Assembly (NCBI GenBank): GCA_947625775.1
Contig: CANQPM010000012.1
Coordinates: 1-64,000, forward strand
Length of the DNA: 64,000 nt
Direction: 5' to 3'
Origin: an uncultured Lachnospiraceae bacterium
GTDB taxonomy: Bacteria > Bacillota > Clostridia > Lachnospirales > Lachnospiraceae
A program made the position numbers and the translations under genes. The stretch's first letter is position 1, and every line of letters begins with the position of its first letter. Under the pieces are notes generated by a model. That model was not told the DNA's origin. It saw only the letters and a program-made list of their open reading frames with translations, and ran no database searches. Shown in pieces: positions 9,910 through 28,260 of the stretch.

Positions 9910-9968
9910 ACCTTAATCCTCCAGCTGGCATTAAAGCATCTGAATTGATTTGTTTTTATTCTTCCATT

Positions 9969-11294: not shown

Positions 11295-11338
11295 ACCTGT
11301 TTTCCTCACTTAAATTTGACATGTGTGTCATATGCATA

Positions 11339-12424: not shown

Positions 12425-12443
12425 ATTTATTTCCCCAATCTTC

Positions 12444-13520
12444 TTACCGTTTTTGTATGATGCAGGCACCATATATAAGCGTGATACAGTCAAGCTCCCT
12501 TTCTATCTGCTTTACCTTATCAGGCAAATGGTTAAAGTGATAATGATTATATTCAGGATTCCAGTCCTTGCAAAAATTCAAAATTTTTGCTCTTGACAAT
12601 ACATAATCAAATATAGACTGTGAATCATATACTACTGGCGGATATTGCGCAAAAGCCCCCTGCGATCCGCAAAAACAATCTTCCAGAATGTATATTCCGC
12701 CACTTTCCAATAAATCCCAGAGCTTTTCAAAAGATACGCGCATATCTCCCCATGCGTGGGAGGCATCATCTATAATAGCATAAAACTGTCCCTTATCTCT
12801 CAGCTGGCTGATTGTAGCTTCATCAGTGCTATTACCACAGATAACCTCTATCCTTTCTTCCTCAAATCCTTTTGCCCTCGGGTTTATGTCTACACCTATA
12901 ATATCTGCTTGCGTGAAATATTCCTTCCACATTTTGAGAGATGCTCCATTTCCGCAGCCCAATTCACATATTGTCTTTTTCTCATTTCTGGCATTTTGAA
13001 ACAGCCTATCATAATGCCGCAAATAATCGTGCGTCAGCCTGATTCCGTTTTCCACAATCATAATTGATGCCTTATCTGTTCCATATTTTATTCCTATGCT
13101 GTTTAAAATGCCTTCGCTGGCTTTTAATTCTTCTATTACATTTTTTATGTACTCCAAATTTTCTGATAAAGGCATAAAACGAATATTTTCCTGCCTGATT
13201 GCCGGATGCATCTGCAGACCGCTTGGCCACGATGTCTTCACAAATAAAATTCTTTCCTCTGGAAAATTATATTTTTGAACTGCTTCCGTGCCAATTTCCT
13301 CATAATAATTACTGCTGCATATGATTAGCAAGTCTACCCCTTTTGCAACATCTAGCCCGCTCTCTGGGGGTTCCACTGGACATCCTAAAATTTCTATTTT
13401 TTGTGCGTCTGGATTATTATCTATCACAGAAACAATTTCCCACTCTTTAAAATATCCCTTGATTTGCTTGATAACCAGCTGGCCTATATCCGCTATTCCC
13501 CATATAGCTATCTTTCTCAT
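12444..13520 (-). CDS. Rossmann module plus TylF-like O-methyltransferase
   Basis: 358 residues. The first 110 are the island's Rossmann-like module (KIAIWGIADIGQLVI, SVIDNNPDAQ, LLIICSSNYYEEI). The C-terminal part is a class I SAM methyltransferase of the macrocin/TylF type: CELGCGNGASLKMW for SAM binding, VDINPRAKGF, and IDDASHAWGDMRVSFEKL followed by SGGIYILEDCF, the metal-site region of that family. It probably methylates a sugar hydroxyl. GGGAGAA lies upstream of the ATG. It is the second methyltransferase of the island and lies between the propeller gene and the GT8 fusion. Confidence 0.75.
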   Translation of the reverse strand: MRKIAIWGIADIGQLVIKQIKGYFKEWEIVSVIDNNPDAQKIEILGCPVEPPESGLDVAKGVDLLIICSSNYYEEIGTEAVQKYNFPEERILFVKTSWPSGLQMHPAIRQENIRFMPLSENLEYIKNVIEELKASEGILNSIGIKYGTDKASIMIVENGIRLTHDYLRHYDRLFQNARNEKKTICELGCGNGASLKMWKEYFTQADIIGVDINPRAKGFEEERIEVICGNSTDEATISQLRDKGQFYAIIDDASHAWGDMRVSFEKLWDLLESGGIYILEDCFCGSQGAFAQYPPVVYDSQSIFDYVLSRAKILNFCKDWNPEYNHYHFNHLPDKVKQIERELDCITLIYGACIIQKR

Positions 13521-13552
13521 TTTAACATTTCTCCCATCATAATTTTTTTAGA

Positions 13553-15403
13553 TCATTTTGCGGCATCCGCATATAAAACCGTCAATTCAAAGTTCGGCGA
13601 ATGATGCGCTAAATATATATTGTAGTCTGGAACAATCTTTTTCAGAAAAATAGGCACGCTCCATAAATCTGAATAATCGCACGAAACGCATATTGCCAAT
13701 TTGGGCTTATTATTTTTAATCAGCTCTTTTCCCCCCTCTAAAACAGACATTATGCCATTTTCATAAATTCTTATAAAAGTGGCATTCGTTTTTTGAAGCC
13801 TTTCATCCAAGCTGACCTCTTGAAGCATAGCTCCATCATAATGTATAATTTCTTTATATTTTCCCCTCGTGTATTCCCTAAATTTTTTAACTACAAGCTC
13901 TTTTTCCTCACCCACATCCACATATATCTCATCATCTGTTATATGATAAAAGTCATCCCTAAAATATGTGCCCCCCTCATACAAATCAAGATATTTTATA
14001 TTGCGGTCATATAGCACGTTCTGCCTTTTCTTTATAAGCTCTAAGTACAGTCTTTTTGAGCGCTCATCTGCAAACAAGCTTACTGCATATTCAATATCAG
14101 CAAGATCCCTTGTGTCTGGATGCCATGATTCATATTCCCTCTTTTCAAGGCATCTGTACGAAAACAGATTATTAAAGCCTTTATCCCTCAGTTGTGCCAC
14201 AATATCACTGTAACTGTCGGGCGATATGACAATCCCGTCATTTTTGCCAATCCTGCATAGCTCTGCAAACGGAATGTCAGTACATTCCTGCTTTTTACTC
14301 GGATTCTGGTCTATAATTCCCGCAATAGTAATGTCTTTATGTGACTGCAAAAAATCCTTTCCTCTTTGCCCATATCCATACAGATACAGCTTTCCTTCAG
14401 CCGCACATACCCTTACTTCTTCCCATGTTCTTTTTGAAAGGCTCTCATAATTTTTCTTTTCTTTCTGAAACTGCTGGAATTTTTGTATGTAATATTCGCG
14501 GAAAGGCAAATCTATTGCATACTTCCAAAACAAGGAGGCAGCATATGTATATTCCCCAAAAGGTTCTAACCACGGCTTTACTTGTATAGTATAATGAATA
14601 TTCTTTGGACGAGCGTATCCTTGCTGGTAATACGCTGAGTATTCGTCTGATATTAACTTGCTCAAATTTCCAAATTCTTTTTCCGTATAAGGATACCAAT
14701 TCCATCCAGCATCAATGAATTTTACTTGCCCCGCACACAGTACATTCAAGGCATCCTGATCCTGAAGAAGATACTTTTGTCCTGCAATGAACTCTAACAT
14801 CTGTGCTTCTGAATAAACATTTCTAAACTTCCTCAGGTTCATCAGCATAACACCCGCGTTAAAATATTCTTCTTGAGATACCTCAGGCAAAAAATTCTTA
14901 TGATAGACATATGTCCTGCAAAACATATCATTCTGTTCTATCACTACGCGTCCGCATAACCGCACCGCACCAAGCAGATAATCTTTCACATCTATGGAAT
15001 ACATTTCCGCAATATCGCAAAGATTTATAATATCACAGTCAATATATATAGCTTTTTCATACTTGTCCAAAATATATGGCACTAACATTCTATAATATGT
15101 TGCCTTAGACCATTTTTCACGGTTATGCACATTCCAGTTTTCCGAAATATCTCCCAAGTACTCCTGCATATCAACAAACCGTATTGAAACATTACGTTTT
15201 GTATTGATTTTCTTAATAATATTTTTATTCTTATCAAAAATGCCGTCCTCCAATATCACAATGTCATAATTATTTTCTGCTGATATATGTGAAAGCAATG
15301 ATGCAAGCATAGTCGCAAGAAATGTCACATATCTGTCATCAGAGCTGCACACGACAGCAACATTATTTTTTGAGTACGCAGGCTCTATCCCATATATACG
15401 CAT
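13553..15403 (-). CDS. GT8 glycosyltransferase - Rossmann - degenerate FkbM fusion
   Basis: 616 residues with three parts. Residues 5-280 are a GT8 transferase: CSSDDRYVTFLATML for the nucleotide, YIDCDI as the DxD metal motif, YFNAGVMLMNLRKF and QDQDALNVL. Residues about 340-430 are the Rossmann-like module (LYLYGYGQRGKDFL, GIIDQNPSK). The last 180 resemble an FkbM methyltransferase, ending in the family-like NFELTVLYADAAK. The SAM motif is eroded: DVGAYxGDT has become DVGEEKELV, and the usual MDIEGAE is IYENGIM. That domain is probably not catalytic. The ATG at 15403 is preferred over an upstream GTG because of AAAGG spacing. Confidence 0.75.
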   Translation of the reverse strand: MRIYGIEPAYSKNNVAVVCSSDDRYVTFLATMLASLLSHISAENNYDIVILEDGIFDKNKNIIKKINTKRNVSIRFVDMQEYLGDISENWNVHNREKWSKATYYRMLVPYILDKYEKAIYIDCDIINLCDIAEMYSIDVKDYLLGAVRLCGRVVIEQNDMFCRTYVYHKNFLPEVSQEEYFNAGVMLMNLRKFRNVYSEAQMLEFIAGQKYLLQDQDALNVLCAGQVKFIDAGWNWYPYTEKEFGNLSKLISDEYSAYYQQGYARPKNIHYTIQVKPWLEPFGEYTYAASLFWKYAIDLPFREYYIQKFQQFQKEKKNYESLSKRTWEEVRVCAAEGKLYLYGYGQRGKDFLQSHKDITIAGIIDQNPSKKQECTDIPFAELCRIGKNDGIVISPDSYSDIVAQLRDKGFNNLFSYRCLEKREYESWHPDTRDLADIEYAVSLFADERSKRLYLELIKKRQNVLYDRNIKYLDLYEGGTYFRDDFYHITDDEIYVDVGEEKELVVKKFREYTRGKYKEIIHYDGAMLQEVSLDERLQKTNATFIRIYENGIMSVLEGGKELIKNNKPKLAICVSCDYSDLWSVPIFLKKIVPDYNIYLAHHSPNFELTVLYADAAK

Positions 15404-15433
15404 GAATATCACTACCTTTCACTGCTTCATTTA

Positions 15434-16362
15434 CTACAAATATTTTTTTATAAACTCATCTATATCCAAGAAAAAGTCATCATACCGCTCGGCAATCTGT
15501 TCGTCTGTCCAGTCCCACCATTTTATCGCATTCAGTGCCTTTATCTGTTCCTTTGTATAACGGTATTTAATAACCCTTGCTGGCACTCCCACTGCAACAG
15601 CATAATCAGGAATATCATGTGTTACGATTGCCCCAGCGCCAATAATAGCGCCATTTCCGATATTTGCACCATTTGTTATGATAACATTTCGTCCAATCCA
15701 TACATCATTTCCAATACTGATCCTTTTAATTTCTTCTGTTCTCTTATATCCATTTTCATTAATGCCCTCAATATACCATGGATAATTTTTATATTTTTCC
15801 TTCTTATCCTGTTCATTAATAATTTTTAGCAATGGCGTATACATAACAGGATGCGTTGAAATAAGATTTAATGGATGATTCGGAACTACATCAGCTCCAA
15901 ATGCTATACTGCAAAAACTTCCAATCGATTCAATATGCTGATGATTTCTAACAATCGGTCCATAACTATGCTTTCCTATGCTTGTTTTGCTTTGCGGCTG
16001 TAAACGACTGTCCAGTATAACTGAAGGCAATGAAATAATCTGTTCATCCTTAAAATATTTGCCTATTTCATTTTTTAATTCTAAATACAAGTCTGGGTTT
16101 GCCGTCGCAATTAACACACTGTAATCTGGGCAGTATATACCCCCCCCCTGTATAAATAATTTACAGGTTTTATATTACTGTTATATTTGCACAAGTGATT
16201 ATCAAGAATTAATTTAGGTTTTATATTATATGCCTTTTCCATAATCTGCACTGTTTCCATCCCAATATCACCATATGGGCATACTACAATATTATCCTGT
16301 CCTCCCGAAGCAATTATGGACTCTATGCAAAATTTTATTTGATTTGTAACAGATATTGCCAT
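15434..16362 (-). CDS. CatB-type O-acetyltransferase, frameshifted at a poly-G tract
   Basis: Two frames together encode one protein of about 309 residues. The 5' frame (16362 to 16111) starts [12 protein letters not shown] with GGAG upstream, carries the first half of a Rossmann module ([22 protein letters not shown]) and stops in VYTAQITVC. The 3' frame (to 15434) continues the same module ([19 protein letters not shown]) into a left-handed beta-helix acetyltransferase with hexapeptide repeats ([32 protein letters not shown]) and the [16 protein letters not shown] tail of CatB-related enzymes. The frames meet at nine G. Seven or ten G would join them. In this copy full-length enzyme is off, unless a minor product starts at the GTG at 16117 or slippage occurs. 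It probably O-acetylates a glycan sugar. Confidence 0.85.
16140..16148 (-). repeat. Poly-G tract (9) at frameshift point
   Basis: Nine consecutive C on the plus strand, G on the coding strand, exactly where the two halves of the acetyltransferase change frame. Frame arithmetic: upstream codons reach the tract as TAC-Agg and the downstream frame needs ggT-ATA-TAC, which requires a tract length of 7 or 10. Confidence 0.95.
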
Positions 16363-16379
16363 TGTACCAATTTCTCCAA

Positions 16380-18047
16380 CTACTCCTTGCTATCAATCAT
16401 AATTCCTCGCTCCAATAGATATTTTTTGTGATGCTCCTTATTCGGATATAGCAGGCATTCATTTTTACGAATTTCAATCTCATCTGGCTCACTAAGCTCA
16501 TATATGCCATTTCTCAGCTTTCTTCGGTCTATCGCATTATTTACAAATCCTTCTCCCATATTTTCTATGCTGTAGGAAATATCAAACTGGTATATCAAAA
16601 AACCCATATATTCTATCCTGATTTTTGTTCTGTCATTTTCTCCCAGTGTTCTAACTGCCAGATCATTATTAGAGGCATATGTGTATGCATAGCCTTTTAT
16701 TCTTTCAGATAATTCTCTATAATCCTCTTTTTTGCACAGCATATCGGCATCTTTATGTATTGGAAAACTTTTTGGAAAATCATTTACCATATATGGCACT
16801 TCCAACTTACATAAAGCATATTTCAAATCCTTTATCTGCTCAAAACATTCACTAATATCAAGCGGAAGCTTTAGAATTTTATCCATCAGCCTGCTCTGGT
16901 AACAGTTATCAGCTATGTGCAGGATATTGTCATAAAAATAATCATCTACTCTGTCTTTAAATCTACTTCTTATAATTTTCTTTATTTCTTCTACTTTAAT
17001 GGATATCGGCAGTGATGTTGATGCCTTTAACCTATACCTTGGATTGTCGATTGACAGAAACATAACTTCCACCATATCGCCAAATCCCCGCATATGCTCT
17101 ATTTTCTTTTCGACCTTCCAGCTCTCTATGTCATCTACTGAATAGACAGCCCTAATAAATTCTGGCAGCTTTCCTTCTTCCAAATGCTTCGTTTCTGTTT
17201 TCTTTATATGTGCAAATTCCGAAATCTCTGCTTTTATCTCCTCGCTGAATTTTATAGCCGGCGACCAAATGAAAGCTGCAAACTCCTTCTGAGCAAGTTT
17301 CATGATTTTTTGCTTTTTATGTTCTATAGCCTTAATCTCGCCCACCGAAAACCTATGATTCCAAAACCATTCTGTCCTGTAGTCGCAGCTGTATTCCTGT
17401 GGCGTTATTTTGACAGGCAGCAGCATAATATGGAAATATAAGCAAATAGCGACACGATGCGCTCCATCCATAATCCGCATTTTCTCATCACAGACAATGC
17501 ATGAATCTTCTTCATATCCATTTTGCCTAATTGCCTCTATCAGTTTTTGAAACTTATCCCATTCCTCACTCGCCTGTTGTGCCGTCAGCTTCAGCCTCTC
17601 CTGCTGCATTTTTTTGTAGAGTATAATTCCTTCATCTGTTCCCGCCATATAGGATTCTATTGCAAAATATTTCACGGCAATATCCACTCGATTAAAATCG
17701 CCGTAAAAATCCACTTGCATATGCAGAAAGTCATAAATATAAACCCTGGCTCGCCTGCACACAAAGTCCACAATGATATTGTGTTCCTTAATCCCCAGTC
17801 CCAAAAGCTGCGTATACATTTGCGCGGCATAATTCGTACTCGCCAGAACTACCTTGTCAAATTGAAGGCTGCAATGCTCACTTGGAGCATAAATCTTCCA
17901 TCCTCCCGACTTCCAATATTGATGCTGTTTCTCTGCTGCGTTATCTAAAAAGCCCACAATCTGATATTTTTCCGCCACTTGACCGATTATTTTTTCTGCC
18001 ACATTTCCAGTGCCAAAAATAAGCACCCTCTGCCGACCAGCCTCCAT
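16380..18047 (-). CDS. Rossmann - ParB-like - nucleotidyltransferase-like protein
   Basis: 555 residues with an unusual layout. Residues 1-105 are the island's Rossmann-like module (RVLIFGTGNVAEKI, GFLDNAAEK, KVVLASTNYAAQ). The middle (about 120-250) has the ParB/sulfiredoxin-like signature IMDGAHRVAICLYF, the DGxHR-type loop used for nucleotide handling. The C-terminal part (about 400-520) resembles a nucleotidyltransferase fold (FPIHKDADMLCKKEDYRELSERI), with spaced acids that could bind metal. Related ParB-domain proteins occur in polysaccharide loci, but the reaction is unknown. It lies 6 bases after the CMP-sugar synthetase gene, in the same transcription unit. Confidence 0.6.
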   Translation of the reverse strand: MEAGRQRVLIFGTGNVAEKIIGQVAEKYQIVGFLDNAAEKQHQYWKSGGWKIYAPSEHCSLQFDKVVLASTNYAAQMYTQLLGLGIKEHNIIVDFVCRRARVYIYDFLHMQVDFYGDFNRVDIAVKYFAIESYMAGTDEGIILYKKMQQERLKLTAQQASEEWDKFQKLIEAIRQNGYEEDSCIVCDEKMRIMDGAHRVAICLYFHIMLLPVKITPQEYSCDYRTEWFWNHRFSVGEIKAIEHKKQKIMKLAQKEFAAFIWSPAIKFSEEIKAEISEFAHIKKTETKHLEEGKLPEFIRAVYSVDDIESWKVEKKIEHMRGFGDMVEVMFLSIDNPRYRLKASTSLPISIKVEEIKKIIRSRFKDRVDDYFYDNILHIADNCYQSRLMDKILKLPLDISECFEQIKDLKYALCKLEVPYMVNDFPKSFPIHKDADMLCKKEDYRELSERIKGYAYTYASNNDLAVRTLGENDRTKIRIEYMGFLIYQFDISYSIENMGEGFVNNAIDRRKLRNGIYELSEPDEIEIRKNECLLYPNKEHHKKYLLERGIMIDSKE

Positions 18048-18053
18048 TCCTGC

Positions 18054-19205
18054 TCACCACTTCCCGCCAATAATTTTTTCAATGATTTCCCGCACTGCAC
18101 CGTCTCCGCCTTTTCGCTTGGCGACATAATCCGCCTGTTCTTTCACTTCCTCCGACGCGTCCGCGGGACAGGCGCTAAAGCCTACGGCTTTCAGGCATTC
18201 CAAATCATTACAGTCATCACCTACATAAGCGGTTTCCGACAAATCAACGCCATATTTTTCGCATATTTTCTTTACCACTGACAGCTTATCGCTGATGCCC
18301 TGGTAAATTTCATCCGCCTTTATCTTTTTGGCTCGCGCTTTGTTCAGCGCCCTGTCCTCGCCTGTGATGATCCCTGTCTTGATCCCATTATTACTCAGAA
18401 GCCGAAAACCCATTCCGTCCTTAGCATTAAACTTCTTTAATTCGTCACCCTGCTCCGAATAGTACATCCCGCCATCTGTCAGGCATCCGTCACAGTCTGT
18501 CAGAAAAATCTTTATTTCCTTTTTCCCGCGCCCTGCCCTCAGGCGGCTCTCCAGCAGCTTTTCTGAAATTATCCAGTCGGAAGGCTCGTCAATCTCAAAA
18601 TATGTGTCTTCTGGCATCACATATGCTCTTATTCTTCCTGATATCCTGCTGCCTGTCTGCATAAGCCTGTCCTTGCCCGTAATATAAAAAGCCCCATTTT
18701 CGACAAAGCTTCCGCTAAATTCCTGTCTGCGCGGGCGGCTGTAATAATCATAATTTACAGGGGCGGCAATCCCCGCCTCGTCTATGCTCCAGTAAAACCG
18801 CTTCTGTTCTACTACTGAAAGCACGCTGTCAGTGCCTTGCGTGCGGTACAGCCTTATGCCTCCAGCCAAGTCATCGCCTGTCAGAAGCGGCGAGGTTGCC
18901 TGAATCAGCACAATATCATCAAACTCATGAGCCTCGGCAAATTCCAGCATGGCAGCCTCCGTAGATGCCGTGTCTGATGCCGTGTCTGCGCTCCTGTCCA
19001 CGACTTCTGCTTTGGCAAGCTGCAGCTTGCATACCTTATCCTTTATCACTTCGCTGTCCGTTGACACATATACCCTGTCTATTGCAGGACAGTCGCACGC
19101 TGCTTTTACTGCCCAATAGACTAGGGGCTTGCCCGCCATCTCTTTGATATTCTTCAGCGGTATGGATTTGCTTCCTCCCCGCACTGGGATAAATGCTACA
19201 GTCAT
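18054..19205 (-). CDS. CMP-sugar synthetase fused to KdsC-like phosphatase
   Basis: 383 residues. The N-terminal 215 are a CMP-acylneuraminate/CMP-Kdo synthetase: FIPVRGGSKSIPLKN (CTP loop), VYVSTDSEVI, and IQATSPLL near residue 95. The C-terminal 160 are a HAD phosphatase of the KdsC/N-acylneuraminate-9-phosphatase type: LTDCDGCLTDG (motif I), IITGE, and YVGDDCNDLECL (motif IV). A fused synthetase and phosphatase implies that the upstream NeuB-like enzyme makes a phosphorylated keto-sugar acid, which is dephosphorylated and then activated with CMP. This matches Kdn-type or Kdo-type logic rather than the phosphate-free NeuNAc, Leg or Pse routes. The exact sugar is unresolved. Confidence 0.85.
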   Translation of the reverse strand: MTVAFIPVRGGSKSIPLKNIKEMAGKPLVYWAVKAACDCPAIDRVYVSTDSEVIKDKVCKLQLAKAEVVDRSADTASDTASTEAAMLEFAEAHEFDDIVLIQATSPLLTGDDLAGGIRLYRTQGTDSVLSVVEQKRFYWSIDEAGIAAPVNYDYYSRPRRQEFSGSFVENGAFYITGKDRLMQTGSRISGRIRAYVMPEDTYFEIDEPSDWIISEKLLESRLRAGRGKKEIKIFLTDCDGCLTDGGMYYSEQGDELKKFNAKDGMGFRLLSNNGIKTGIITGEDRALNKARAKKIKADEIYQGISDKLSVVKKICEKYGVDLSETAYVGDDCNDLECLKAVGFSACPADASEEVKEQADYVAKRKGGDGAVREIIEKIIGGKW

Positions 19206-19220
19206 ATGCTTCTCTCAATC

Positions 19221-20087
19221 TCATTTCTTATATTTCAATTTCTGCCTTTGAACCTGTTCCACAGGAAGTATTTCTTCTTTTTTATACTGCAGGGAGCTGT
19301 AAACAGCATCCAGATTCCTTTTCAGCTTCCTGATCCCGTCTGGCTCAAGCGATGCGGCATGATCCGTTCCTTTCCATGTCCTGTCGAGCGTATAATGCCT
19401 TTCGATATATTCCGCTCCCAGCGTATATGCTGCGATATCCACCGCTATCCCCAGATGATGCCCTGAAAAGCCGATCGCCTTCACTCGCCCGCCATACTGC
19501 TGCTTCATCCTAAGAATCTCCAGCAGGCATACATCCTCAAATGCCACTGGATAGCCCGAAGTGCAGTTATATAAGATCAGGTCTTTATTGCGCTGCTTTC
19601 TCTCAAACAGGCGGACGATCTCCTCCTCCTCGCCGTGCGTCGTCATACCAAATGAAAGCTGTATTTCCCCGCCATAGTTGTCGCACAGCCATTCCAACAT
19701 CTGATAGTTGTTGTTGCACGCAGACGGTATTTTTATGAATCTGGGATCAAGCTGCGCGATTTCTTTTGCGCTCGTCATATCCCACACGGACGTAGAATAA
19801 GTAATGCCCATTTCCTCACACCAGCGTTTCAGCTGCGCGTGCTGCCCTAAGTCAAATTCCAGATATTCCCTGTGTTCTCCATATGTGCTGCCGTACGCAT
19901 TCTGCGGGTTAGGATGCGGCGCATCATACTGTTCCTTCGTCAGCAGTTCCCTGGGACAGCGCTTCTGGAATTTAATCGCATCTGCCTTGCAGAAAACCGC
20001 CGCCATATTGATAAGCTCGTGCGCGATCTCCATCTTTCCCATATGATTGCACCCTGCTTCCGCTATCACATACGCTCTCTTATACAT
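19221..20087 (-). CDS. NeuB-family keto-sugar acid synthase lacking SAF domain
   Basis: Condenses PEP with an aldose (phosphate) to give a nine- or eight-carbon keto acid. 288 residues hold the TIM barrel: VIAEAGCNHMGKMEIA, DAIKFQKR, STSVWDM, FIKIPSACNNN, GMTTHGEEEE, GFSGHHLGIA and ERHYTLDR with GTDHAASLEP. The C-terminal SAF (antifreeze-like) domain found in typical NeuB/SpsE of about 340 residues is missing; the gene stops after a short Lys-rich tail with no sign of frameshift. GHHLGI replaces the common SDHTxGI. AGAAGG precedes the ATG. With a phosphatase-fused CMP synthetase next door, a 9-phosphate or 8-phosphate product is likely. Confidence 0.85.
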   Translation of the reverse strand: MYKRAYVIAEAGCNHMGKMEIAHELINMAAVFCKADAIKFQKRCPRELLTKEQYDAPHPNPQNAYGSTYGEHREYLEFDLGQHAQLKRWCEEMGITYSTSVWDMTSAKEIAQLDPRFIKIPSACNNNYQMLEWLCDNYGGEIQLSFGMTTHGEEEEIVRLFERKQRNKDLILYNCTSGYPVAFEDVCLLEILRMKQQYGGRVKAIGFSGHHLGIAVDIAAYTLGAEYIERHYTLDRTWKGTDHAASLEPDGIRKLKRNLDAVYSSLQYKKEEILPVEQVQRQKLKYKK

Positions 20088-20125
20088 AATTTCCCTTCTT
20101 TTCCGGCAAATATTTTTTCTGCCTT

Positions 20126-20710
20126 TTATCTGCTTTTCATGAGCTTGCCAATCGCCCCGCCTGGGTGGTTGCGCTTAAAGTCCTCTATCGGCAGCTCCAT
20201 TTTTTTGGCTATCATCATTGCAAGCCCCTGCAGCACGATCAGGTTTACGGTGGTGGAATTGTTCGGCATTATGTTCCACAAGTCACCTTCATGCCCAAGC
20301 GCCAGTACTACGCTGTTTTTTATCTCCCTTGTCAATGTGCTGTCTTTTTCAAATGTCAGCAGCCACAGGTTTACATTTCTTTCCTCTAGCAACCTCGCCA
20401 GATAGATAGACTCTTCTGTCTCTCCACTTTTTGTGAGAATAATCACCATGTCGCCGTCCTTGACAATTCCCATATCGCCATGCACTGCTGAATTGGTGTG
20501 AAGGAAATACGCTTCCAGCCCCATAGACACCATAGAGCCTACAAATTTATCACAGATAGGGACGTTTTTCCCGAGTCCTGAAACAATTATCTTCTTTCCA
20601 TCCTGAAGCGTTTCCACAGCTTCATCCACCCATCTGCTGAATAGTTTCTCGTCTAAGGAATGAATAGAACGATCAAATTCTGCCAATTGTTTTTCAAAAT
20701 AAGCAATCAT
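20126..20710 (-). CDS. SIS-domain isomerase, KdsD/KpsF-like
   Basis: 194 residues, a single SIS domain without the CBS pair of full-length KdsD. It has SGLGKNVPICDKFVGSM, the HGDMGIVKDGDMVIILTKSGETEE segment that matches arabinose-5-phosphate isomerases (HGDLGM...SNSGET), and NHPGGAIGKLM near the end. It probably isomerises or binds a ketose/aldose phosphate and, by position, feeds the adjacent synthase. If it makes arabinose 5-phosphate the pathway product would be Kdo-like; another sugar phosphate would give another keto acid. The gene lies 38 bases upstream of the synthase gene and 9 bases after the NTP-transferase gene. Confidence 0.75.
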   Translation of the reverse strand: MIAYFEKQLAEFDRSIHSLDEKLFSRWVDEAVETLQDGKKIIVSGLGKNVPICDKFVGSMVSMGLEAYFLHTNSAVHGDMGIVKDGDMVIILTKSGETEESIYLARLLEERNVNLWLLTFEKDSTLTREIKNSVVLALGHEGDLWNIMPNNSTTVNLIVLQGLAMMIAKKMELPIEDFKRNHPGGAIGKLMKSR

Positions 20711-20719
20711 GCTTTTACC

Positions 20720-22243
20720 TCACAAAACTTCTTCTAAATAGTACAATCCATTATAAAACGCTCCGCATACAGAATCATAATCCTGCCACGCATAAGTCGT
20801 AAGTGACAACCAAATGAGGGCATGCAACAGCCGTACCTCGCGCTCATCCGCGCCAGTCAGCGCAAAGAACTCCTTTTCCATGTCCTCCCAATGGTTTGAC
20901 GCTATCTCAAGGCTTACGCCTTCCTCTGCTGATTCCCCTATCCCGAGCTTAAATTCCTTCAGGTTAAACCTGTCATAATTGCCGACGATAGAGTAGTACA
21001 TCTTCGCCCAGTCATAGCGGACATCCCCGTAAAGCTCTGTATGCCCGAAATAGCCGCGCGGGTCAATCAGCACAGGCTCGCCATTTTCCCGCAGCATCAT
21101 ATTTGAGAATGTGCAGTCGCCATGTATGAATGAAAACTGCCCGCAGGACAATGCCAGCCGCTGCACTTCACGTTCCAGCTCAGGCTTATGGTAAAAGACA
21201 TTCCTGCACCTTCGCCCGTTCACCAGGATTTCCCTGTCCCTTGCAAATGGCACTAAGTCCTGTATTTTGCCGATCCTGTCAAATGTCTTGCTAAAATACG
21301 CTTCCCTTATGCTGAATGTGTCCGCCGCCCTTGTCTCCGACAAATGGAGCTTCTTCAGCGAATGTATTAGCTGCTCCAGAATGTCCTTTTTCTGTGCGTG
21401 CGAGAGGTCACACTCGTATATATTCCTGCCGTGTATGTATTCCATTTGCAGGGGGTTAGTGCCATATATCTGCGGCAGTATGCTTATCCCCTTTTCCCTT
21501 GCTTTCGCATACCATGCGCACTCCCTGGCGGCAAGCTTTTCACCCTGCCTGTCTATGGGTTCTTTCGTCAGGATGCCGCCCTCTACTGTAATCCTGTTGA
21601 ACGGCCTGCATTTTTCTTTTTCCAGCTTCTCATATTCTTCAAGAATGCCAAATTCCCTTGTCCCTGCAAGCCCGACTGTGCTGTAGGACATTTTTTTCTG
21701 CTGCATCCATCGCACCAGCTCGCCGCTCTCAGGAATTTCTGCCAGGCACTCCTTATCCCTGAAAAGGAAAAATCCTGCCACTCCGTATTCCTCGGATGAT
21801 TCTTCTTCAAATTCGCCGTTTTCATATTTCCATCTGCATGGAAATGTCTGTGAAAGCCCTATGTAATTTTTGTCTGGGATATCCCCGCTGTCTTCATATC
21901 CCTGCGGAAGCGCGAATTTTTCGGGCAGGATCAGATCAGACCACACAAGCATGAACGGCTCTTTGTCCGGGATCAGCTGCAGCGCCTGTCTGATGCCTGA
22001 GCATGTCCCGCTGCCCTGTGCATCGACGACCTGATATTTTACATCCGCAAATACATCCAAATATTGGCGCATGACCTCTTTTTTGTAATCCGCTATAATG
22101 ACAAATCGCTTGTCCGGGTACTTCCTGAAAAGATGAAAAAGCATTGGAAGGTTATCCACAGGGACAAGGGCTTTGGGTTTGTTTTTTGTCAGATATTTTA
22201 GGCGCGTGCCTTTTCCGCCCGCCTGTACAATGATATACTCCAT
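20720..22243 (-). CDS. Sugar/choline-type nucleotidyltransferase fused to APH-like kinase
   Basis: 507 residues. The N-terminal 230 are an NTP transferase: IIVQAGGKGTRLKYLT with NKPKALVPV, and a metal site in LVWSDLILP. The C-terminal 270 are an aminoglycoside/choline-kinase-like fold: FIHGDCTFSNMML (catalytic HGDxxxxN) and LIDPRGYFG (metal-binding D). One polypeptide could phosphorylate a small substrate and then activate it with a nucleotide, as LicA plus LicC do for choline; the substrate here is unknown. The ATG at 22243 is chosen because the upstream ATG has no ribosome site. It is the first gene of the long leftward island operon. Confidence 0.75.
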   Translation of the reverse strand: MEYIIVQAGGKGTRLKYLTKNKPKALVPVDNLPMLFHLFRKYPDKRFVIIADYKKEVMRQYLDVFADVKYQVVDAQGSGTCSGIRQALQLIPDKEPFMLVWSDLILPEKFALPQGYEDSGDIPDKNYIGLSQTFPCRWKYENGEFEEESSEEYGVAGFFLFRDKECLAEIPESGELVRWMQQKKMSYSTVGLAGTREFGILEEYEKLEKEKCRPFNRITVEGGILTKEPIDRQGEKLAARECAWYAKAREKGISILPQIYGTNPLQMEYIHGRNIYECDLSHAQKKDILEQLIHSLKKLHLSETRAADTFSIREAYFSKTFDRIGKIQDLVPFARDREILVNGRRCRNVFYHKPELEREVQRLALSCGQFSFIHGDCTFSNMMLRENGEPVLIDPRGYFGHTELYGDVRYDWAKMYYSIVGNYDRFNLKEFKLGIGESAEEGVSLEIASNHWEDMEKEFFALTGADEREVRLLHALIWLSLTTYAWQDYDSVCGAFYNGLYYLEEVL

Positions 22244-22271
22244 CTTTTTCTTACCCCGCATTTGCTGTGAC

Positions 22272-22407: not shown

Positions 22408-23412
22408 TTATGCTTCGCTGGCGAACATATCATAATAATGCTCCGCTTTCTCCTCCGTAAGCTTGAAGTACCTCTGCAGCTTGTCAATGATGCGCTCCCT
22501 TGATACCTGTTCCGCAATACCGTCAAGCACCAAAACACGTATTCCTTCTTCTCTGCCTTCTTCTATTCCGTCCATCCTTCCATCATTATATACACATTGC
22601 CCCAGTCCTGTCACCCCGGATACCTCCTTCCACAGCTCCTCAGTCTCCGAGAAGTCAATATATTCCGACACAGTTTCAATAAAATCTGCCTTATGGGGGT
22701 ACATTACCGTATTCAGGAAATGCAACAGGTCATAATTTTCCTCCCCCTTTTCACCATTATACACTATATTGCCAAGTTTGATAACCACCAAAGTCATTAA
22801 ATCATAATTTTCTTTTGGTGCTTCCTTCAAGCTTGTGTTTTGGGTATTGACTGTCTCGTAGACTGACACACTGTATTGCTCGTTTTTCGGGATGTTATCC
22901 CGGCATATCCATATGCTGTAGCATTTCTCCAACTGCCCATAGTCAGTCTGCTCCGTCGCAAGCGAGAGCTGCGACGAAAGTTTCCTTGCCAGATAATACA
23001 TCCCCCTCTTTTCAACAGGATACGGCAGCGAGTAGTCTTTCTGCGGCTCTATGTCTATGTGCAGCTTCACTGTAATTCTCGATTTTGTCAGCATTGGGTT
23101 CAGTGCCCGAAAATCAATGTCAAACTGAGTCACCTTCTCATTGAGCAGCTTATACTCTGCACTGTCACCCGTTATGGCGGTATTTGTCCTGCCCGGTGAC
23201 ACCTCTGTATCTTCGCTGATCGAGTCGGCCTCTATAAAGCCCATGATTTCCTTCTTGGAATATCCTTTATATTCACTAACCGTACCCTGCAGGATGACCG
23301 AAAGAACTTCCTTACTGTGTAAAAGAAGCTTGCTCTGGGCGTCCAGCCCCCGCATGTCTTCTGTAAGTTGGAATGAATTTAATGTTTCCATGCTTCCTTT
23401 GACTGTATCCAT
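22408..23412 (-). CDS. Rpn family nuclease / PD-(D/E)XK transposase-like protein
   Basis: 334 residues similar to a Lachnospiraceae group annotated as Rpn recombination-promoting nuclease or PD-(D/E)XK transposase-like. The N-terminus has LLLHSKEVLSVILQGTVSEY and RTNTAITGDSAEY. The core FDIDFRAL, then HIDIEPQKDY and KRGMYYLARKLSSQL, fits the D...ExQ/K pattern of a PD-(D/E)XK nuclease. A helical tail rich in EEGREEGI follows. It has its own promoter with a flanking inverted repeat and its own terminator, so it is an independent unit between the tnpB-like gene and the glycosylation operon. Whether it moves DNA or has been domesticated is unknown. Confidence 0.7.
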   Translation of the reverse strand: MDTVKGSMETLNSFQLTEDMRGLDAQSKLLLHSKEVLSVILQGTVSEYKGYSKKEIMGFIEADSISEDTEVSPGRTNTAITGDSAEYKLLNEKVTQFDIDFRALNPMLTKSRITVKLHIDIEPQKDYSLPYPVEKRGMYYLARKLSSQLSLATEQTDYGQLEKCYSIWICRDNIPKNEQYSVSVYETVNTQNTSLKEAPKENYDLMTLVVIKLGNIVYNGEKGEENYDLLHFLNTVMYPHKADFIETVSEYIDFSETEELWKEVSGVTGLGQCVYNDGRMDGIEEGREEGIRVLVLDGIAEQVSRERIIDKLQRYFKLTEEKAEHYYDMFASEA

Positions 23413-23589: not shown

Positions 23590-23879
23590 AATAATGACTT
23601 TATTTCAAATCATCATAAGTATTAGCTTGGCATTCCGCCTCCGCGCAAAAAGCGTTCCTCGCGCCTTCCACACAGTTCGCTCCGCATAAAGCTGCGGTCC
23701 TGGCGTACAAGCAGAGCCTCGTAAGCTCCTGATAACGCCGTCTGGACAGTTGCCTGTCCGACTTATATCATAAACGCTGTTTCCTGCGATACGGCTGTGC
23801 CGTTCAAACAGTCTCCTGTTCATTCTCAGGGCATACAGTTTTATCACTATTTCTTCATATTCATTTTCTTTTTTACATG
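23590..23879 (-). ncRNA. Candidate omega-RNA (reRNA) of the TnpB-like protein
   Basis: Active TnpB proteins use a guide RNA made from the 3' end of their gene and the transposon right end. Directly after this tnpB-like stop the sequence becomes GC-rich and strongly structured while its flanks are AT-rich. Visible stems include GGACAG-TTGC-CTGTCC on the plus strand (23744-23759; a GCAA tetraloop in the RNA), CGGC-ACA-GCCG, and CCGCA/TGCGG around GCTTTA. An 80-codon open frame at 23605-23847 has no ribosome site or recognisable domain and is probably a by-product of this structure. The 3' scaffold boundary, and hence the guide, cannot be fixed by eye. The rest of the gap (23474-23589) is AT-rich with nothing else seen. 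Confidence 0.55.
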
Positions 23880-25262
23880 TCAGTCCGCATCTTCATCATG
23901 CTTTCCCCCGCTTTTTGCAATCCTCTCTATATTCCTAGCCGAATTGACCGCTATCGTACTGTGATACCCACAAGCTTCACAGACAAAATCCGCTTTAACG
24001 CGCTTCCCCTCACTTCCACAACTTGAACAGATACCCCCAGTCCCCTTAGAACTAATCTCTACCAGTTCCACCGTATTAAGCCGACATTTAAAAGCAATCT
24101 GATCTCGTATATACCCCCGAAAACTCCTCGACATCTTACGGTTAAGCGGCTTGGAATAATTCTTCGCCCTGTTTTTTGTAACAGGTTTGGTAATCACTAT
24201 CCTTTCAGGCTTCTCCTCACGGAACATGCGATTCAATTCTGCATTGATAAAGTTCTGTGTTTTCTCGCGCATACGCCGTTTCTGTTCATCATATTTCACC
24301 CTGCCGAAATTGTTTTCCCGAAGCTTTTCCAGCCATTCATCCTGCATTTCTGTATTCTCACTGGCCGCTTGCTCAGCCTTCTTTCTATATGCGGCATAAA
24401 TCCTACCGCGCTCATTATTTTTCTCCGAAAGCCGCTCTGTCTCCGGCGTGACCAGACTGCCCAGCTCTTTTCCATAGACATTTCCATTAGAAAGCGTCAG
24501 CATATCGCTATAGCCAATATAGGCATAAACCGTATTTGTATAATCTCCCCTTTTCCGCGCCTCCACATCGACAGGAAACGTAATCCTTACATCATCTCCC
24601 CTAACAATTATCCTAAGCTGCCTGTCCGCTTCGCCTATCCCTTTTACAGGAACAAAAACACGCCTGCGCGGAGTTCTACTTGCAAGATACAGACCATTCT
24701 CATCCGCACGATAGCCGTTCGACGATACCAGAAAGCAATCAGCTTTCTGCTGCTTTGGTGTTTTCAGATGGCGCCTTACCAGCCTGCAGAGCAGGTTATT
24801 TAACCTCTTGATGTCAAGCTCTATATCTTTTGTCTTTTCGGGCATTTCATATTTCTGACGGTTCAACACCGCCGCAAATACACTGTTTATCTTTAATACT
24901 GTCCTAAGATACAGCCTGTCCTCTTCACTTAAATTTTCATTTTCATTGATAAGACTGCGGAGCTTATTTTTCAGCATACTCCACATTCCCTTGATATCTC
25001 CAACTGCTTCTGAAATGGCAAGCTCATAATAAACCGTCGGCATATTTAGCTGCTGTCGGAGTCCGCAGTAACGCATCTCATTTAAAATTCCGTAAACCGG
25101 CGTCAACCTGTTTACATATACGATTCCTGAATATCGACCATACACATAATTTTTTACTTTGCAATAGTCCTGTGCAATTCCACGTAGAAATTCCATAGTT
25201 TCATCCGTAAGCGATCTGCTGTAAAGTGCAGCAGTCTTAGTAATAATTTCTTCTGTTTTCAT
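23880..25262 (-). CDS. Nuclease-dead TnpB-like protein
   Basis: 460 residues. A helical N-terminal half leads into a RuvC-like domain and zinc ribbon that align with IS605-type TnpB: a RuvC-I region (VYAYIGYSDMLTLSNG), a bridge with NNFGRVKYDEQKRRM, a RuvC-II region (ERIVITKPVTKN), PLNRKMSRSFRGYIRDQIAFK, a CxxC...CxxC ribbon (C412, C415, C428, C431) and a RuvC-III region (IAVNSARNI). By that alignment the three catalytic acids are gone: D to Y248, E to T358, D to A438. RNA and DNA binding parts look intact. The ATG overlaps the upstream stop (ATGA), so translation is coupled to the transferase gene. No TnpA is nearby. This resembles TldR-type RNA-guided repressors derived from TnpB. Confidence 0.8.
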   Translation of the reverse strand: MKTEEIITKTAALYSRSLTDETMEFLRGIAQDYCKVKNYVYGRYSGIVYVNRLTPVYGILNEMRYCGLRQQLNMPTVYYELAISEAVGDIKGMWSMLKNKLRSLINENENLSEEDRLYLRTVLKINSVFAAVLNRQKYEMPEKTKDIELDIKRLNNLLCRLVRRHLKTPKQQKADCFLVSSNGYRADENGLYLASRTPRRRVFVPVKGIGEADRQLRIIVRGDDVRITFPVDVEARKRGDYTNTVYAYIGYSDMLTLSNGNVYGKELGSLVTPETERLSEKNNERGRIYAAYRKKAEQAASENTEMQDEWLEKLRENNFGRVKYDEQKRRMREKTQNFINAELNRMFREEKPERIVITKPVTKNRAKNYSKPLNRKMSRSFRGYIRDQIAFKCRLNTVELVEISSKGTGGICSSCGSEGKRVKADFVCEACGYHSTIAVNSARNIERIAKSGGKHDEDAD

Positions 25263-26620
25263 ACGTCCACATTCTGTATCATGACAGGCATTCCGCGCTT
25301 CCTGCAAAGCTGCACCACGCTGCTCCCATCGCCATAATAGGCATCACTCAAAACCACAGCGCGGTCAATGTCCGTACTGTCATCGTAAATGCCCCAACCC
25401 TCCTGCTTGTATCTTTCAACAATACTGCTGTATTCCTCCCAAAGCTGTGGGCGCATGGCGCGGATAGTAGACGGAATCAATGGATGCGGACGCCATAAAA
25501 GCGCCACATCGTCTTTATGCTCCTTAAATACCACAAAGGCGCGTTCCATTTTGTCCAACATCTTATCCCCACAATCCAAAAGCGCGCCAACGCTCGTATT
25601 ATAAAAAATAACTTTTTTGTCCGTGCCGTCAGGTTTCTTGATTATTTTCTGCCAGTCCTGCGGTATCTCTAAATCTTCTTTCCTTATCCTCTGCACTCTC
25701 TCAAGCTTCGGCGAACCCGCGCCGCTAAACTTCTGTTCCAGATATTTCCTGTCCAGATGCTCTCCCGCCAAACCATTTGCCTTCGCCGCTTTCAGGTATT
25801 CATTAACATAAATCTGCTTCATCTTTTCAGACTGGACTATCACTTTATCCGCATAAATAACGCCTGGTATCCAGATAAAATGTTTCATAGACTCAATTGC
25901 TGCCTGATTGTCTGGCTCAATCTCACCCAAGACAAAGTATGGAATATATACAAGCTTGTCCGTATATTTTTTCAGATTCCGCGAATAAAAGCGCGGATGG
26001 ACGCTTGTGACAAGGTTGCAGTCATCATACCCGTTATGGATATAAATCTCATCCGGCATCCGTTCTTCAAAGTCATAAGTCTGCCAGTCCACGACCTCAA
26101 TGTCTTTAGGGTACTGATTCCCTTCATAGTGCATTTCTTTAAAGCTGCGGTCAGTATTCAAATCATAATATGGTATAGGAACACAATAGGCATCATATTT
26201 CGGATCTGCCTTCAATGCCAGATACACGCTTTCCAGCGAATCCCACATGCTTGCCTTATACGGAAAGAAAACCGCTTCTTTTTTGACAGGAATGTCATTC
26301 TTTACGATATTCTCAACTTTTATAAGCTGTTTGTTCAGAACCTTATATGCCTTATTAGGACTACAACTGCCCGCCTCCAACGCCTCATATATGCTAAATG
26401 CCGTCTCACAATATTCCTCAAGGCAGGAAACCGCCATATGCCCTTCTCCCTCAGACTGCTCGATACCCGTGCCCGCCACGACAGCATTCTGCTGGCATTC
26501 CGCCAATATATCATGTGCTTCCTGAATGCTTCCCCTATCAGCGGCAGCCTTCACTTTCTCATGCGCTGCCTTGAGCGTATTCAGGATTCCCAATATCTCC
26601 TGCTTCTGTTTGTTCCTCAT
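25259..26620 (-). CDS. CDP-glycerol glycerophosphotransferase-like protein
   Basis: About 453 residues, GT-B-like, resembling the CDP-glycerol:poly(glycerophosphate) transferase family of teichoic-type polymers. Seen: an N-terminal helical region, FFPYKASMWDSLESVYLAL and PIPYYDLN (acceptor half), YIHNGYDD, VIFYNTSVGALLDCGDKML, VALLWRPHPLI and SDAYYGDGSSVVQL with PVMIQN at the end, the usual CDP-binding region. ATG 26620 is preferred (AGGA upstream); 26647 is possible. It is the first gene downstream of the invertible promoter, so its expression should be phase variable. It could use the CDP-activated product of the cytidylyltransferase at the far end of the island. Confidence 0.75.
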   Translation of the reverse strand: MRNKQKQEILGILNTLKAAHEKVKAAADRGSIQEAHDILAECQQNAVVAGTGIEQSEGEGHMAVSCLEEYCETAFSIYEALEAGSCSPNKAYKVLNKQLIKVENIVKNDIPVKKEAVFFPYKASMWDSLESVYLALKADPKYDAYCVPIPYYDLNTDRSFKEMHYEGNQYPKDIEVVDWQTYDFEERMPDEIYIHNGYDDCNLVTSVHPRFYSRNLKKYTDKLVYIPYFVLGEIEPDNQAAIESMKHFIWIPGVIYADKVIVQSEKMKQIYVNEYLKAAKANGLAGEHLDRKYLEQKFSGAGSPKLERVQRIRKEDLEIPQDWQKIIKKPDGTDKKVIFYNTSVGALLDCGDKMLDKMERAFVVFKEHKDDVALLWRPHPLIPSTIRAMRPQLWEEYSSIVERYKQEGWGIYDDSTDIDRAVVLSDAYYGDGSSVVQLCRKRGMPVMIQNVDV

Positions 26621-26767
26621 ATCAATCCATTTCCTGACAGCAGGCATGCACTATCTATATTTTCCTGTGTATATTGCTTGATAAGATAGCGTATTCTGCT
26701 GATAATAATATCTGTACAGCTTTTCTTTTAATAAATTCTCTAAAAACTGACAATTATCGAAAATATA

Positions 26768-26794
26768 TTTCACAGATTGCGCACGTCTGTGAAA
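26768..26794 (+). repeat. Left recombination site of invertible element
   Basis: Arms TTTCACAGA (26768-26776) and TCTGTGAAA (26786-26794) are perfect inverted copies around a 9-base spacer TTGCGCACG. This is the layout of a tyrosine recombinase core site. Twenty-one bases (26774-26794) recur in inverted orientation at 28234-28254. The site lies in the 5' leader of the transferase mRNA, where it can form a hairpin. Confidence 0.85.
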
Positions 26795-26837: not shown

Positions 26838-26866
26838 AGTATAACATTATTTTTTTGACGTATCAA
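26838..26866 (-). promoter_or_regulatory. Invertible outward promoter
   Basis: Minus-strand TTGATA (26861-26866) and TATACT (26838-26843) separated by exactly 17 bases, near the sigma-A consensus. It sits inside the invertible segment, 44 bases from the left site, and reads out across it toward the ATG at 26620. I see no terminator in the leader of about 200 bases. The rest of 26621-27050 is AT-rich and non-coding, holding this promoter, the left site and presumably a recombinase promoter on the plus strand that I could not define. Confidence 0.75.
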
Positions 26867-27050
26867 CATTTTTGCAGAAATTTTTATGTATATTATTTAT
26901 ATTTCTGTAAATTTTTTCCTGTTAATCCTTATATAAGTACGGTAAAAAGTCTAGAAAATATGAATATGTTCTTTGATATGGTAAAATTATGAGGTTTTTT
27001 ATGGTCAGATATGTGGTCAAAAATAAGTGGAAAAATGGAGGGCTGATAGA

Positions 27051-28199
27051 ATGGGAAGACATGGCGAAAATATTAGAAAACGCAGTGACGGACGCTGGGA
27101 GGCGCGTTATATGTCATACGACACAGGAAAGGGAGAAAAAATCTGCCGTTCTGTATATGGACATACATATGAAGAAGTCAAGAAAAAACGTATTGAAGCA
27201 TTAAGAAAGCCTGCAGCTTTAGCTGGAACAGGAAGTGATTCAGGACAGGCAGAAAATACATTGCAGGATATTGCTTTTGTGGCAGCGGCTCAAGAGTGGC
27301 TGGCGTCTGTAAAAGCAGAGCACAAACCGTCTACTTTTGAGAAATACAGCTTTATTTACCATAGCTATCTTGAAACACCATTTGACGGCATTATGCTTTT
27401 TCAGATTACAGAAAAGCTTGTCCAGGACAGGCTTGAAGCCTGCAAGGCGGTATCGGAAAGCCTGCAAAAAAGCATTTATGGCGTATTAAACGGAATTCTG
27501 CGGTATGCATCAAAGCGGTACTGTATAATGCTTCCCGAAATAAAAAGAAAAACTGTAAAGTCGCATAGGGAAGAAGCGGAAACATTCACTAAATCTGAGC
27601 AGGCAAAGCTTTTATCATTTCTTGGAATAAATATCGACTGCTTCAAGCTGGGGGTGCTCTTATGCCTGTTTACAGGTCTGCGTCTGGGAGAACTCTGCGC
27701 CCTGAAATGGTCAGATATTGATTTTACAAATAAGACACTTACTATAAGAAGAACTGTTCAGAGGCTTTACGTAGAGAACGGCGGCACAAAGACGGCCTTG
27801 GTGGAAACTTCTCCTAAAAGCGGCAATTCAAAACGCGAAATTCCGCTGCAGGATGCCATAGTCGTATTGCTTATGGGCTTCCAAAACGGAAAAGAATATG
27901 TATTCGGCGGTGACAAGCCGCTTGATCCGAGGACTATGCAGAATCATTACAAGAAGATACTTCAGGAAGCAGGAATATCTTATAAAAATTTTCACACTCT
28001 GCGCCATACATATGCCACGAACTGTATCGAAGGCGGAACGGATGTAAAATCGTTGAGTGAGATGCTGGGACATTCCAGTATTAAAATCACATTGAATTAT
28101 TATGTACATCCGTCTATGGATACTAAGCGCATGTATGCCGATAATCTGTACCGATTTTATGCAGGGCTTAATGGTCAGGTTATGGGTAGGGCTGGTTAG
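27051..28199 (+). CDS. Tyrosine recombinase of the invertible element
   Basis: 382 residues, a tyrosine recombinase. An N-terminal arm-type domain (GRHGENIRKRSDGRWEARY), a SAM-like core-binding domain (AAQEWLASVKAEHKPSTFEKY) and a catalytic domain are present. Catalytic residues seen are R near 211 (FTGLRLGELCALKW), H315-x-x-R318 (FHTLRHTYATN), H341 (MLGHSSIKIT) and the Tyr in NYYVHPS at 350/351. The ATG at 27051 has GGAGGG 8 bases upstream. The domain order resembles conjugative-element and phage integrases, but here it is enclosed between two inverted sites, so it most likely catalyses inversion of its own locus. It is the only convincing plus-strand gene in the right 60 kb. Confidence 0.9.
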   Translation: MGRHGENIRKRSDGRWEARYMSYDTGKGEKICRSVYGHTYEEVKKKRIEALRKPAALAGTGSDSGQAENTLQDIAFVAAAQEWLASVKAEHKPSTFEKYSFIYHSYLETPFDGIMLFQITEKLVQDRLEACKAVSESLQKSIYGVLNGILRYASKRYCIMLPEIKRKTVKSHREEAETFTKSEQAKLLSFLGINIDCFKLGVLLCLFTGLRLGELCALKWSDIDFTNKTLTIRRTVQRLYVENGGTKTALVETSPKSGNSKREIPLQDAIVVLLMGFQNGKEYVFGGDKPLDPRTMQNHYKKILQEAGISYKNFHTLRHTYATNCIEGGTDVKSLSEMLGHSSIKITLNYYVHPSMDTKRMYADNLYRFYAGLNGQVMGRAG

Positions 28200-28233: not shown

Positions 28234-28260
28234 TTTCACAGACGTGCGCAATCTACGAAA
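28234..28260 (-). repeat. Right recombination site of invertible element
   Basis: TTTCACAGA (28234-28242), spacer CGTGCGCAA (28243-28251), then TCTACGAAA (28252-28260). The spacer is the exact reverse complement of the left spacer, so the sites are inverted and inversion-competent. The outer arm differs from a perfect repeat at two positions, unlike the left site, which could affect binding strength. Confidence 0.85.

Follow-up and report, generated by a model that had tools for sequence, protein, structure and literature searches.

Prophage TldR-FliC cassettes of Enterobacter were reportedly described by Wiegand in 2024. In another account, phage TldRs silence host fliC and use a seed of 6 nt (PMC13418256). 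It also covers csrA-linked TldRs on chromosomes, whose targets are fliC ORFs; cross-targeting is predicted for them, and hin-linked promoter inversions accompany them (PMC13418256). Of the systems compared, the csrA-linked TldRs are the closest precedent for the locus described here. Those of Oscillibacter and Flavonifractor are, like ours, chromosomal nuclease-dead TnpB proteins with a gRNA; their targets lie inside ORFs of alternative isoform genes, several predicted cross-targeting loci occur per genome, and an invertase and a promoter inversion lie upstream (PMC13418256). They differ in that they target flagellin and carry csrA (PMC13418256), whereas the likely target here is a GT-B glycan gene, and in that the switch at our locus is a 1.4-kb tyrosine-recombinase segment, other loci of the family having a serine-recombinase-like gene and a short inverted-repeat segment. 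The prophage system of Enterobacter is similar in that the cassette brings its own isoform and the guide silences the host gene; it is phage-borne and directed at a flagellin promoter (PMC13418256), whereas the target here lies in an ORF and only 3 relatives are on viral contigs.

The TnpB proteins of IS200/IS605 and IS607 elements (ISDra2, ISFba1) share with the present protein the fold, the zinc ribbon and a 3' RNA scaffold with an adjacent guide. Here, in contrast, the RuvC acids are lost, and no Y1 transposase or TnpA was recognised among the window proteins scanned with Pfam, which comprised part of the ORFs. In Bacteroides, capsule promoters are invertible and the loci are placed in a hierarchy by UpxY and UpxZ. 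The inverted-repeat promoter switch on glycan operons and the one-at-a-time logic are common to both systems, but cross-silencing depends on protein inhibitors in Bacteroides and would be RNA-guided here. None of the literature matches listed concerned a glycan-targeting TldR or dead TnpB; an earlier mention in the 2024 TldR work or the 2023 TnpB survey work is possible.

The window analysed here is a 64,000-nucleotide stretch of DNA from an uncultured Lachnospiraceae bacterium. It probably encodes a TldR-like RNA-guided repressor within a phase-variable accessory surface-glycan operon, which would silence a resident glycan gene when the operon is ON. The putative repressor is a 460-aa, apparently nuclease-dead TnpB homologue (23880..25262, minus strand). 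Its ORF has 460 codons and no internal stop, and its ATG overlaps the stop codon of the gene upstream (ATGA overlap). Pfam detected the zinc-ribbon domain Cas12f1-like_TNB (2e-9); the NCBIfam model guided_TnpB gave 3e-10, yet only 39.9 bits against a cut-off of 100. An AlphaFold model (pLDDT 82.6, pTM 0.52) aligned with Cas12f and TnpB structures along almost the full chain, with moderate TM-scores (0.46/0.53 for ISFba1 TnpB, 8iaz; 0.48/0.61 for ISDra2 TnpB, 8exa). By Pfam, NCBIfam and structure comparison, TnpB homology spans the full protein.

The initial annotation had read this gene as a TnpB with an intact frame and a kept zinc ribbon in which all three RuvC acids were replaced, by Y248, T358 and A438. 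Both parts of this reading were confirmed, and the structure prediction and alignment that it proposed gave a TnpB/Cas12f fold with acids absent from the RuvC columns. In the alignment, Y248, T358 and A438 fall exactly in the D, E and D columns of 8 active TnpBs from Lachnospiraceae, one of which has N at RuvC-III. All three acids are missing in 93 of 96 family rows, a set pooled from genus genomes and wider relatives that includes some near-duplicates; the other three rows are the truncated L016 and L028, and L254, which has D, E and D intact. In a quick tree L254 lies outside the dead group, with a support of only 0.43. Judged by these alignments, loss of the RuvC acids is old and family-wide. 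Among 16 sequences, the acids conserved in the C-terminal half are D240 and E350 (invariant) and E342 and E402 (near-invariant), and none lies in the three RuvC columns. Frequent frame disruption in relatives, named in the initial annotation as evidence that would count against its reading, was rejected: frames are mostly intact, and 1 of 35 close places is cut short (L016, the same as L055). L005 and L017 were flagged with a stop, yet their ORFs run to 446 and 448 aa; the tnpB of L064, a member of the distant group, is split.

The GC-rich, hairpin-rich stretch noted earlier beyond the stop codon was substantiated, with the correction that the guide ends near 23609. The guide-RNA-like structured region, scaffold plus guide, lies at 23609..23829 (minus strand); its start, CUGAGAAU, is conserved and its 5' end is approximate. 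From 23829 to 23609 the minus strand folds at -79.1 kcal/mol (z = -3.9), and none of 200 shuffles was equally stable. A scaffold helix formed by GGCGU (23739-23735) and ACGCC (23706-23702) encloses, within 23702..23739, a hairpin and the pseudoknot strand GCUUG (23712-23708). The latter pairs with CAAGC at 23625..23629, and the 16-nt predicted guide TAATACTTATGATGAT (23624-23609) follows directly. This structured RNA 3' of tnpB is conserved in relatives. In 52 distinct sequences the pseudoknot is a 5-bp helix between the strand before UAUGCC and the strand just before the guide; it pairs in 236 of 260 cells, against 80-169 when slid, and fully in 33 of the 52 sequences. The pairs include GC, CG, UA and AU types, that is, they covary, and because the pseudoknot abuts the guide, it suggests where the guide starts. 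Rfam gave no match in the window at gathering thresholds. From its sequence, folding and covariation, the 3' RNA appears to consist of a scaffold and a guide encoded after tnpB. Guides were recovered in 33 of 35 close loci, those of L043 and L055 being missing. At L179:4890-5056 there is an extra 3' tnpB remnant with its own guide RNA and a different guide, apparently an orphan guide in the same operon.

The gene upstream of tnpB (25259..26647, minus strand), which makes the ATGA overlap, is the operon's own copy of the putative target family and encodes a GT-B-fold protein of 462 aa with no Pfam family. Its model (pLDDT 92.1) had UDP-GlcNAc 2-epimerases and capsule synthases as top structures, with TM about 0.34-0.43 by query length; "GT-B" is our own name for the fold of these matches. 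Pfam returned a single weak EzrA line for the window copy (E 0.17) and no line for its relative L158. Since neither had a match above the cut-offs, only a GT-B fold is claimed for the target family, and its identity as a CDP-glycerol glycerophosphotransferase was dropped. A family member stands beside tnpB in 43 of 47 loci, downstream in 41 and upstream in 2 (the window and L033); the linkage recurs in 69 of 83 loci of a second set, which partly overlaps the 47. The downstream genes (7954..22261, minus strand) encode an NTP transferase/kinase, SIS, NeuB, a cytidylyltransferase with HAD, GT8, and GT1 with a weak MptE-like part. Because NeuB, cytidylyltransferase, SIS, glycosyltransferase and sugar-transferase genes are neighbours, we read the cluster as a surface-glycan operon. 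The guide RNA is separated from the glycan genes by a PD-(D/E)XK gene of Rpn type (22408..23412, minus strand), which is also found in L174 and L179 and is possibly a later insertion. Neither visual inspection of the ORF lists nor the set of scanned proteins revealed a recognisable csrA or fliC.

In 33 of 35 close loci the 16 nt after the pseudoknot resemble TAAYNCNTAYGATAAT, the sense sequence of a site coding for HNxYDN in the GT-B gene family. At these 33 loci the guide matches, in sense and with 0-4 mismatches, the HNxYD-coding site of a standalone GT-B gene elsewhere in the genome; three guides match at 16/16, and a standalone family member is present in all 22 genomes with such a guide. 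The standalone gene fits the guide better than the operon's own copy in 29 of 30 comparisons, with one tie, and 20 of 20 genomes agree on average; these comparisons cover 30 of the 33 loci (L038, L054 and L172 are without a readable site), and in 4 of the 30 the better-fitting of two standalone genes was taken. On both strands of about 1.5 kb no other site matches as well in 32 of 38 guide-standalone pairs; a second standalone gene is involved in five of the 6 exceptions (L156 three times, L163, L165), and the sixth is the pair L046-L152. At most one mismatch was seen in 15 of the 38 pairs, against 0 of 4940 control 16-mers from the RNA scaffold. In 38 genus genomes the TAAYNCNTAYGATAAT pattern has 56 matches and its reversed control 4; 47 of the 56 fall in retrieved genes or guides and 9 outside. 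The nine include G024:C48, G008:C6, G012:C123 and G023:C12, and some are in genomes without tnpB.

Guide base 5 varies together with the resident gene. G at guide base 5 co-occurs with an HNA-type resident gene in 8 of 11 cases and C guides in 0 of 18 (Fisher 3.8e-5), and the association with the operon's own gene is weaker (6 of 11 and 0 of 15, Fisher 0.002), p-values that overstate independence because the gene sets share ancestry. In L053 and L153 the own gene is of HNP type, yet the G guide goes with an HNA resident. The N, Y and D codons keep their first two positions unchanged in all 33 guides; variation is confined to the Pro/Ala codon, third positions 4, 7 and, once, 10, and the last three bases. 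There is no tnpB homologue on the same contig in 29 of 31 standalone genes, although the contigs of L143, L149, L152, L155, L157, L165 and L168 are short, with little or no upstream sequence; in L144 and L156 the distance to such a homologue is about 19 kb and 44 kb. The family's guides, as far as sequence comparison can tell, match a motif-flanked target elsewhere in the genome. In a distant group, the guides of L060, L062 and L063 (TATGCCTTATT or TGTGCCTTATT) resemble TATATACCTTATT of a standalone gene at a Y-I-P-Y motif, a likeness that is suggestive and was kept out of all counts. One resident target gene, L158:3865-6405, encodes 846 aa with a long extra C-terminal part and adjoins a PfkB-type kinase; a nearby gene is presumably an HtrA-like protease, and no glycan cluster was found in the 7 kb examined around it.

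The synonymous sites of the two gene classes differ. T is the last base of 118 of the 124 H, N, Y and D target codons in 31 standalone genes, against 88.6 expected from the 72% elsewhere in the same genes. No such bias was found in own copies (86 of 120; 84.0 expected from 70% elsewhere) or in 13 cassette genes of other guide groups (35 of 52, against 73% elsewhere). Likewise, the Ile codon before the target is ATA, which gives ATACA, in 24 of 27 standalone genes (7.2 expected from 31% elsewhere) and in 9 of 24 own copies (7.0 expected from 32%). Shared ancestry of the genes inflates these figures. The pattern led us to propose an ATACA-like target-adjacent motif and a need for the own gene to be spared. 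None of the 30 own copies combines ATACA with a full match to the first six guide bases. In the best resident gene ATACA is found for 30 of 33 guides, and ATACA with a perfect 6-nt seed for only 19 of 33, the seed length being borrowed from another TldR (PMC13418256). By codon usage, standalone genes keep synonymous bases that fit the guide and ATACA, and own copies do not.

Upstream of the operon, inverted repeat arms of 27 nt that are 93% complementary (26768..26794 and 28234..28260) bound a presumed invertible segment. Between them lie a tyrosine recombinase gene (27027..28199, plus strand) and a promoter-like TTGATA-17-TG.TATACT (26838..26866, minus strand) directed into the glycan-tnpB operon; the segment is presumed to be in the ON orientation. 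Repeats of at least 17 nt flank 27 of 29 recombinase genes near dead tnpBs, L226 and L230 being without them. Their sequences are mostly TTTCGCAGA..TCTGCGAAA-like, and those of L220, L235, L237 and L242 differ. Both orientations occur: of the 29 recombinases, 20 face the operon and 9 have the opposite direction seen in the window. An outward sigma-70-like site between the recombinase start and the repeat was found in 17 of 17 loci, and an inward one in 0 of 17 at the same threshold, the 17 having been hand-picked from the 27 repeat-flanked recombinases before scanning. A wider consensus scan of the window gave 13 sites in 2.1 kb against 7.5 expected by shuffling; since promoter-like sites are common here, the argument rests on direction and position rather than on the match alone. 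At L218:3033-5894 two tandem repeat-flanked recombinase segments, in opposite orientations and with identical repeats, lie upstream of one dead tnpB.

Other loci carry a small gene that we take, from its sequence, to be serine-recombinase-like. In 11 of 13 such rows (10 of 12 places, since L194 and L040 coincide) inverted repeats spaced about 105-160 bp apart lie between this gene and tnpB, a count without a shuffle control. The second dead-TnpB glycan operon of the window's genome, at L002:1477-3613 (G000:C11), is of this type: it has the small serine-recombinase-like gene, 20-nt inverted repeats 123 nt apart and a guide that fits the resident gene over 14 nt.

We propose that the tyrosine recombinase flips the 1.4-kb segment with its outward promoter. 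In the ON state the operon would be transcribed, yielding its own GT-B protein, the dead TnpB, the guide RNA and the remaining glycan pathway. The dead TnpB and its RNA would locate an ATACA-type motif and then a guide match inside the resident GT-B coding sequence, blocking transcription; the predicted site of occupancy and repression is ATACATAATCCTTATGATAAT. The own copy would escape through a differing motif or seed, as the pattern in the 30 own copies suggests, and the cell would exchange one coat for another instead of mixing them. RNA-guided binding without cutting, as suggested earlier for this gene by likeness to TldRs, is supported by the family-wide acid loss, the kept fold, the mostly intact frames, the conserved 3' RNA and the fit of the guides to targets in trans. 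Flagellin, cited then as the target of some TldRs, gives way to a surface-glycan gene as the likely target.

At the level of the genome this circuit is well supported by sequence comparison, but the target of the window copy itself is less certain because its guide has two mismatches to the resident gene. The search of the genome for a guide target proposed in the initial annotation did find a resident GT-B gene (G000:C29), but TAATACTTATGATGAT fits it at only 14/16, with mismatches at nt 5 (in the seed) and nt 14 and with ATACA present, and chance-like sites fit equally: two unrelated places in this genome agree with the guide in 16 of 18 nt. The operon's own gene fits at 11/16 (5 mismatches). 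No better target was found in this genome, where the remaining sites differ from the guide at 2-3 of 18 nt (two sites at 2), and a site of the exact type is absent from the 38 genus genomes. These points would fit a window copy that is drifting or has been retargeted, a TldR-like gene that once worked but has no fitting target for its guide left in this genome. We regard this as rather unlikely. The same guide is kept in L033/L174, L173 and L176, and TAATTC forms of it in L175, L177, L178 and L180 (L177 and L178 look alike); L224 has ATACA with a 16/16 site for the TAATTC form, and the window ORF, RNA and promoter-like site are intact. For motif plus target, ATACATAATNCNTATGATRAT, the genome has a single exact occurrence, which lies in the resident gene at G000:C29; the genome's second guide (L032) matches that gene with its first 14 nt.

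A different role for the RNA would be that of a cis-acting leader or antiterminator of its own operon, with the dead TnpB as a processing or antitermination factor and the 3' likeness to the GT-B gene as a fossil of an ancestral insertion. The GT-B gene is downstream of tnpB in 41 of 43 loci, and the RNA, where found there, lies between the two, which is a leader position. The window type, however, has its GT-B gene upstream of tnpB and its RNA on the downstream side; moreover, a fossil would not predict codon-patterned variation among 33 guides and would leave the synonymous constraint in standalone genes only unexplained. We consider this explanation quite improbable. Still harder to credit, and in our view very improbable indeed, is RNA-guided homing or recombination, in which the dead TnpB would steer a linked recombinase or the cassette to glycan genes like Cas12k in CAST. 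Recombinase genes are linked and the cassettes adjoin members of the target family; but the recombinases, of two unrelated kinds, have their own inverted-repeat sites around a promoter-like site, the adjacent GT-B gene is the one that mismatches the guide, and neither TnsB nor TnsC was recognised among 14 proteins scanned with Pfam. The TldR-like repressor is our preferred reading.

Homologues of tnpB occur in 28 of 38 genus genomes, with up to four genes each (G024, where matches are listed in pieces), and in 5 of 150 genomes of the wider family, the window's own included. Of 135 wider relatives 80 were kept. The relatives' sequence records are mostly of Lachnospiraceae, with Selenomonas/Selenomonadaceae, Veillonellaceae and one Oscillospiraceae; the source named for several is the rumen, and "Lapin" in the records presumably means rabbit. 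At L235:5938-8185, dead-TnpB-like genes from two different subgroups lie side by side, and the contig ends within the second. A viral origin was rejected, only 3 relatives being on viral contigs. One of these, L254:5992-7383, is the nuclease-intact (D, E, D) relative, about 33% identical, beside which no GT-B gene was found. Another, L253:1-3988, has a GT-B gene together with a dead tnpB and a guide RNA, and phage-like elements may therefore be a vehicle for the cassette.

For the lineage as a whole, we hold it evenly balanced whether there is an RNA-guided mutual-exclusion circuit in which several inverton-gated glycan operons per genome silence the resident gene, and sometimes each other, with the resident gene selected at synonymous sites to stay targetable. 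If the repressor acts as proposed, natural RNA-guided transcription control would extend from flagellin to surface glycans, which are among the main determinants of phage and immune interaction in gut bacteria, and DNA inversion and RNA-guided silencing would be joined in one operon. The guides, the motif and the escape rules are given exactly and are hence testable, and natural targets of dead TnpBs can be sought more generally by their synonymous-site signature. A guide family that matches a rival resident gene and not the cluster's own suggests a programmable coat swap. If the circuit is real, the flip of one DNA segment would set coat identity through RNA base pairing.
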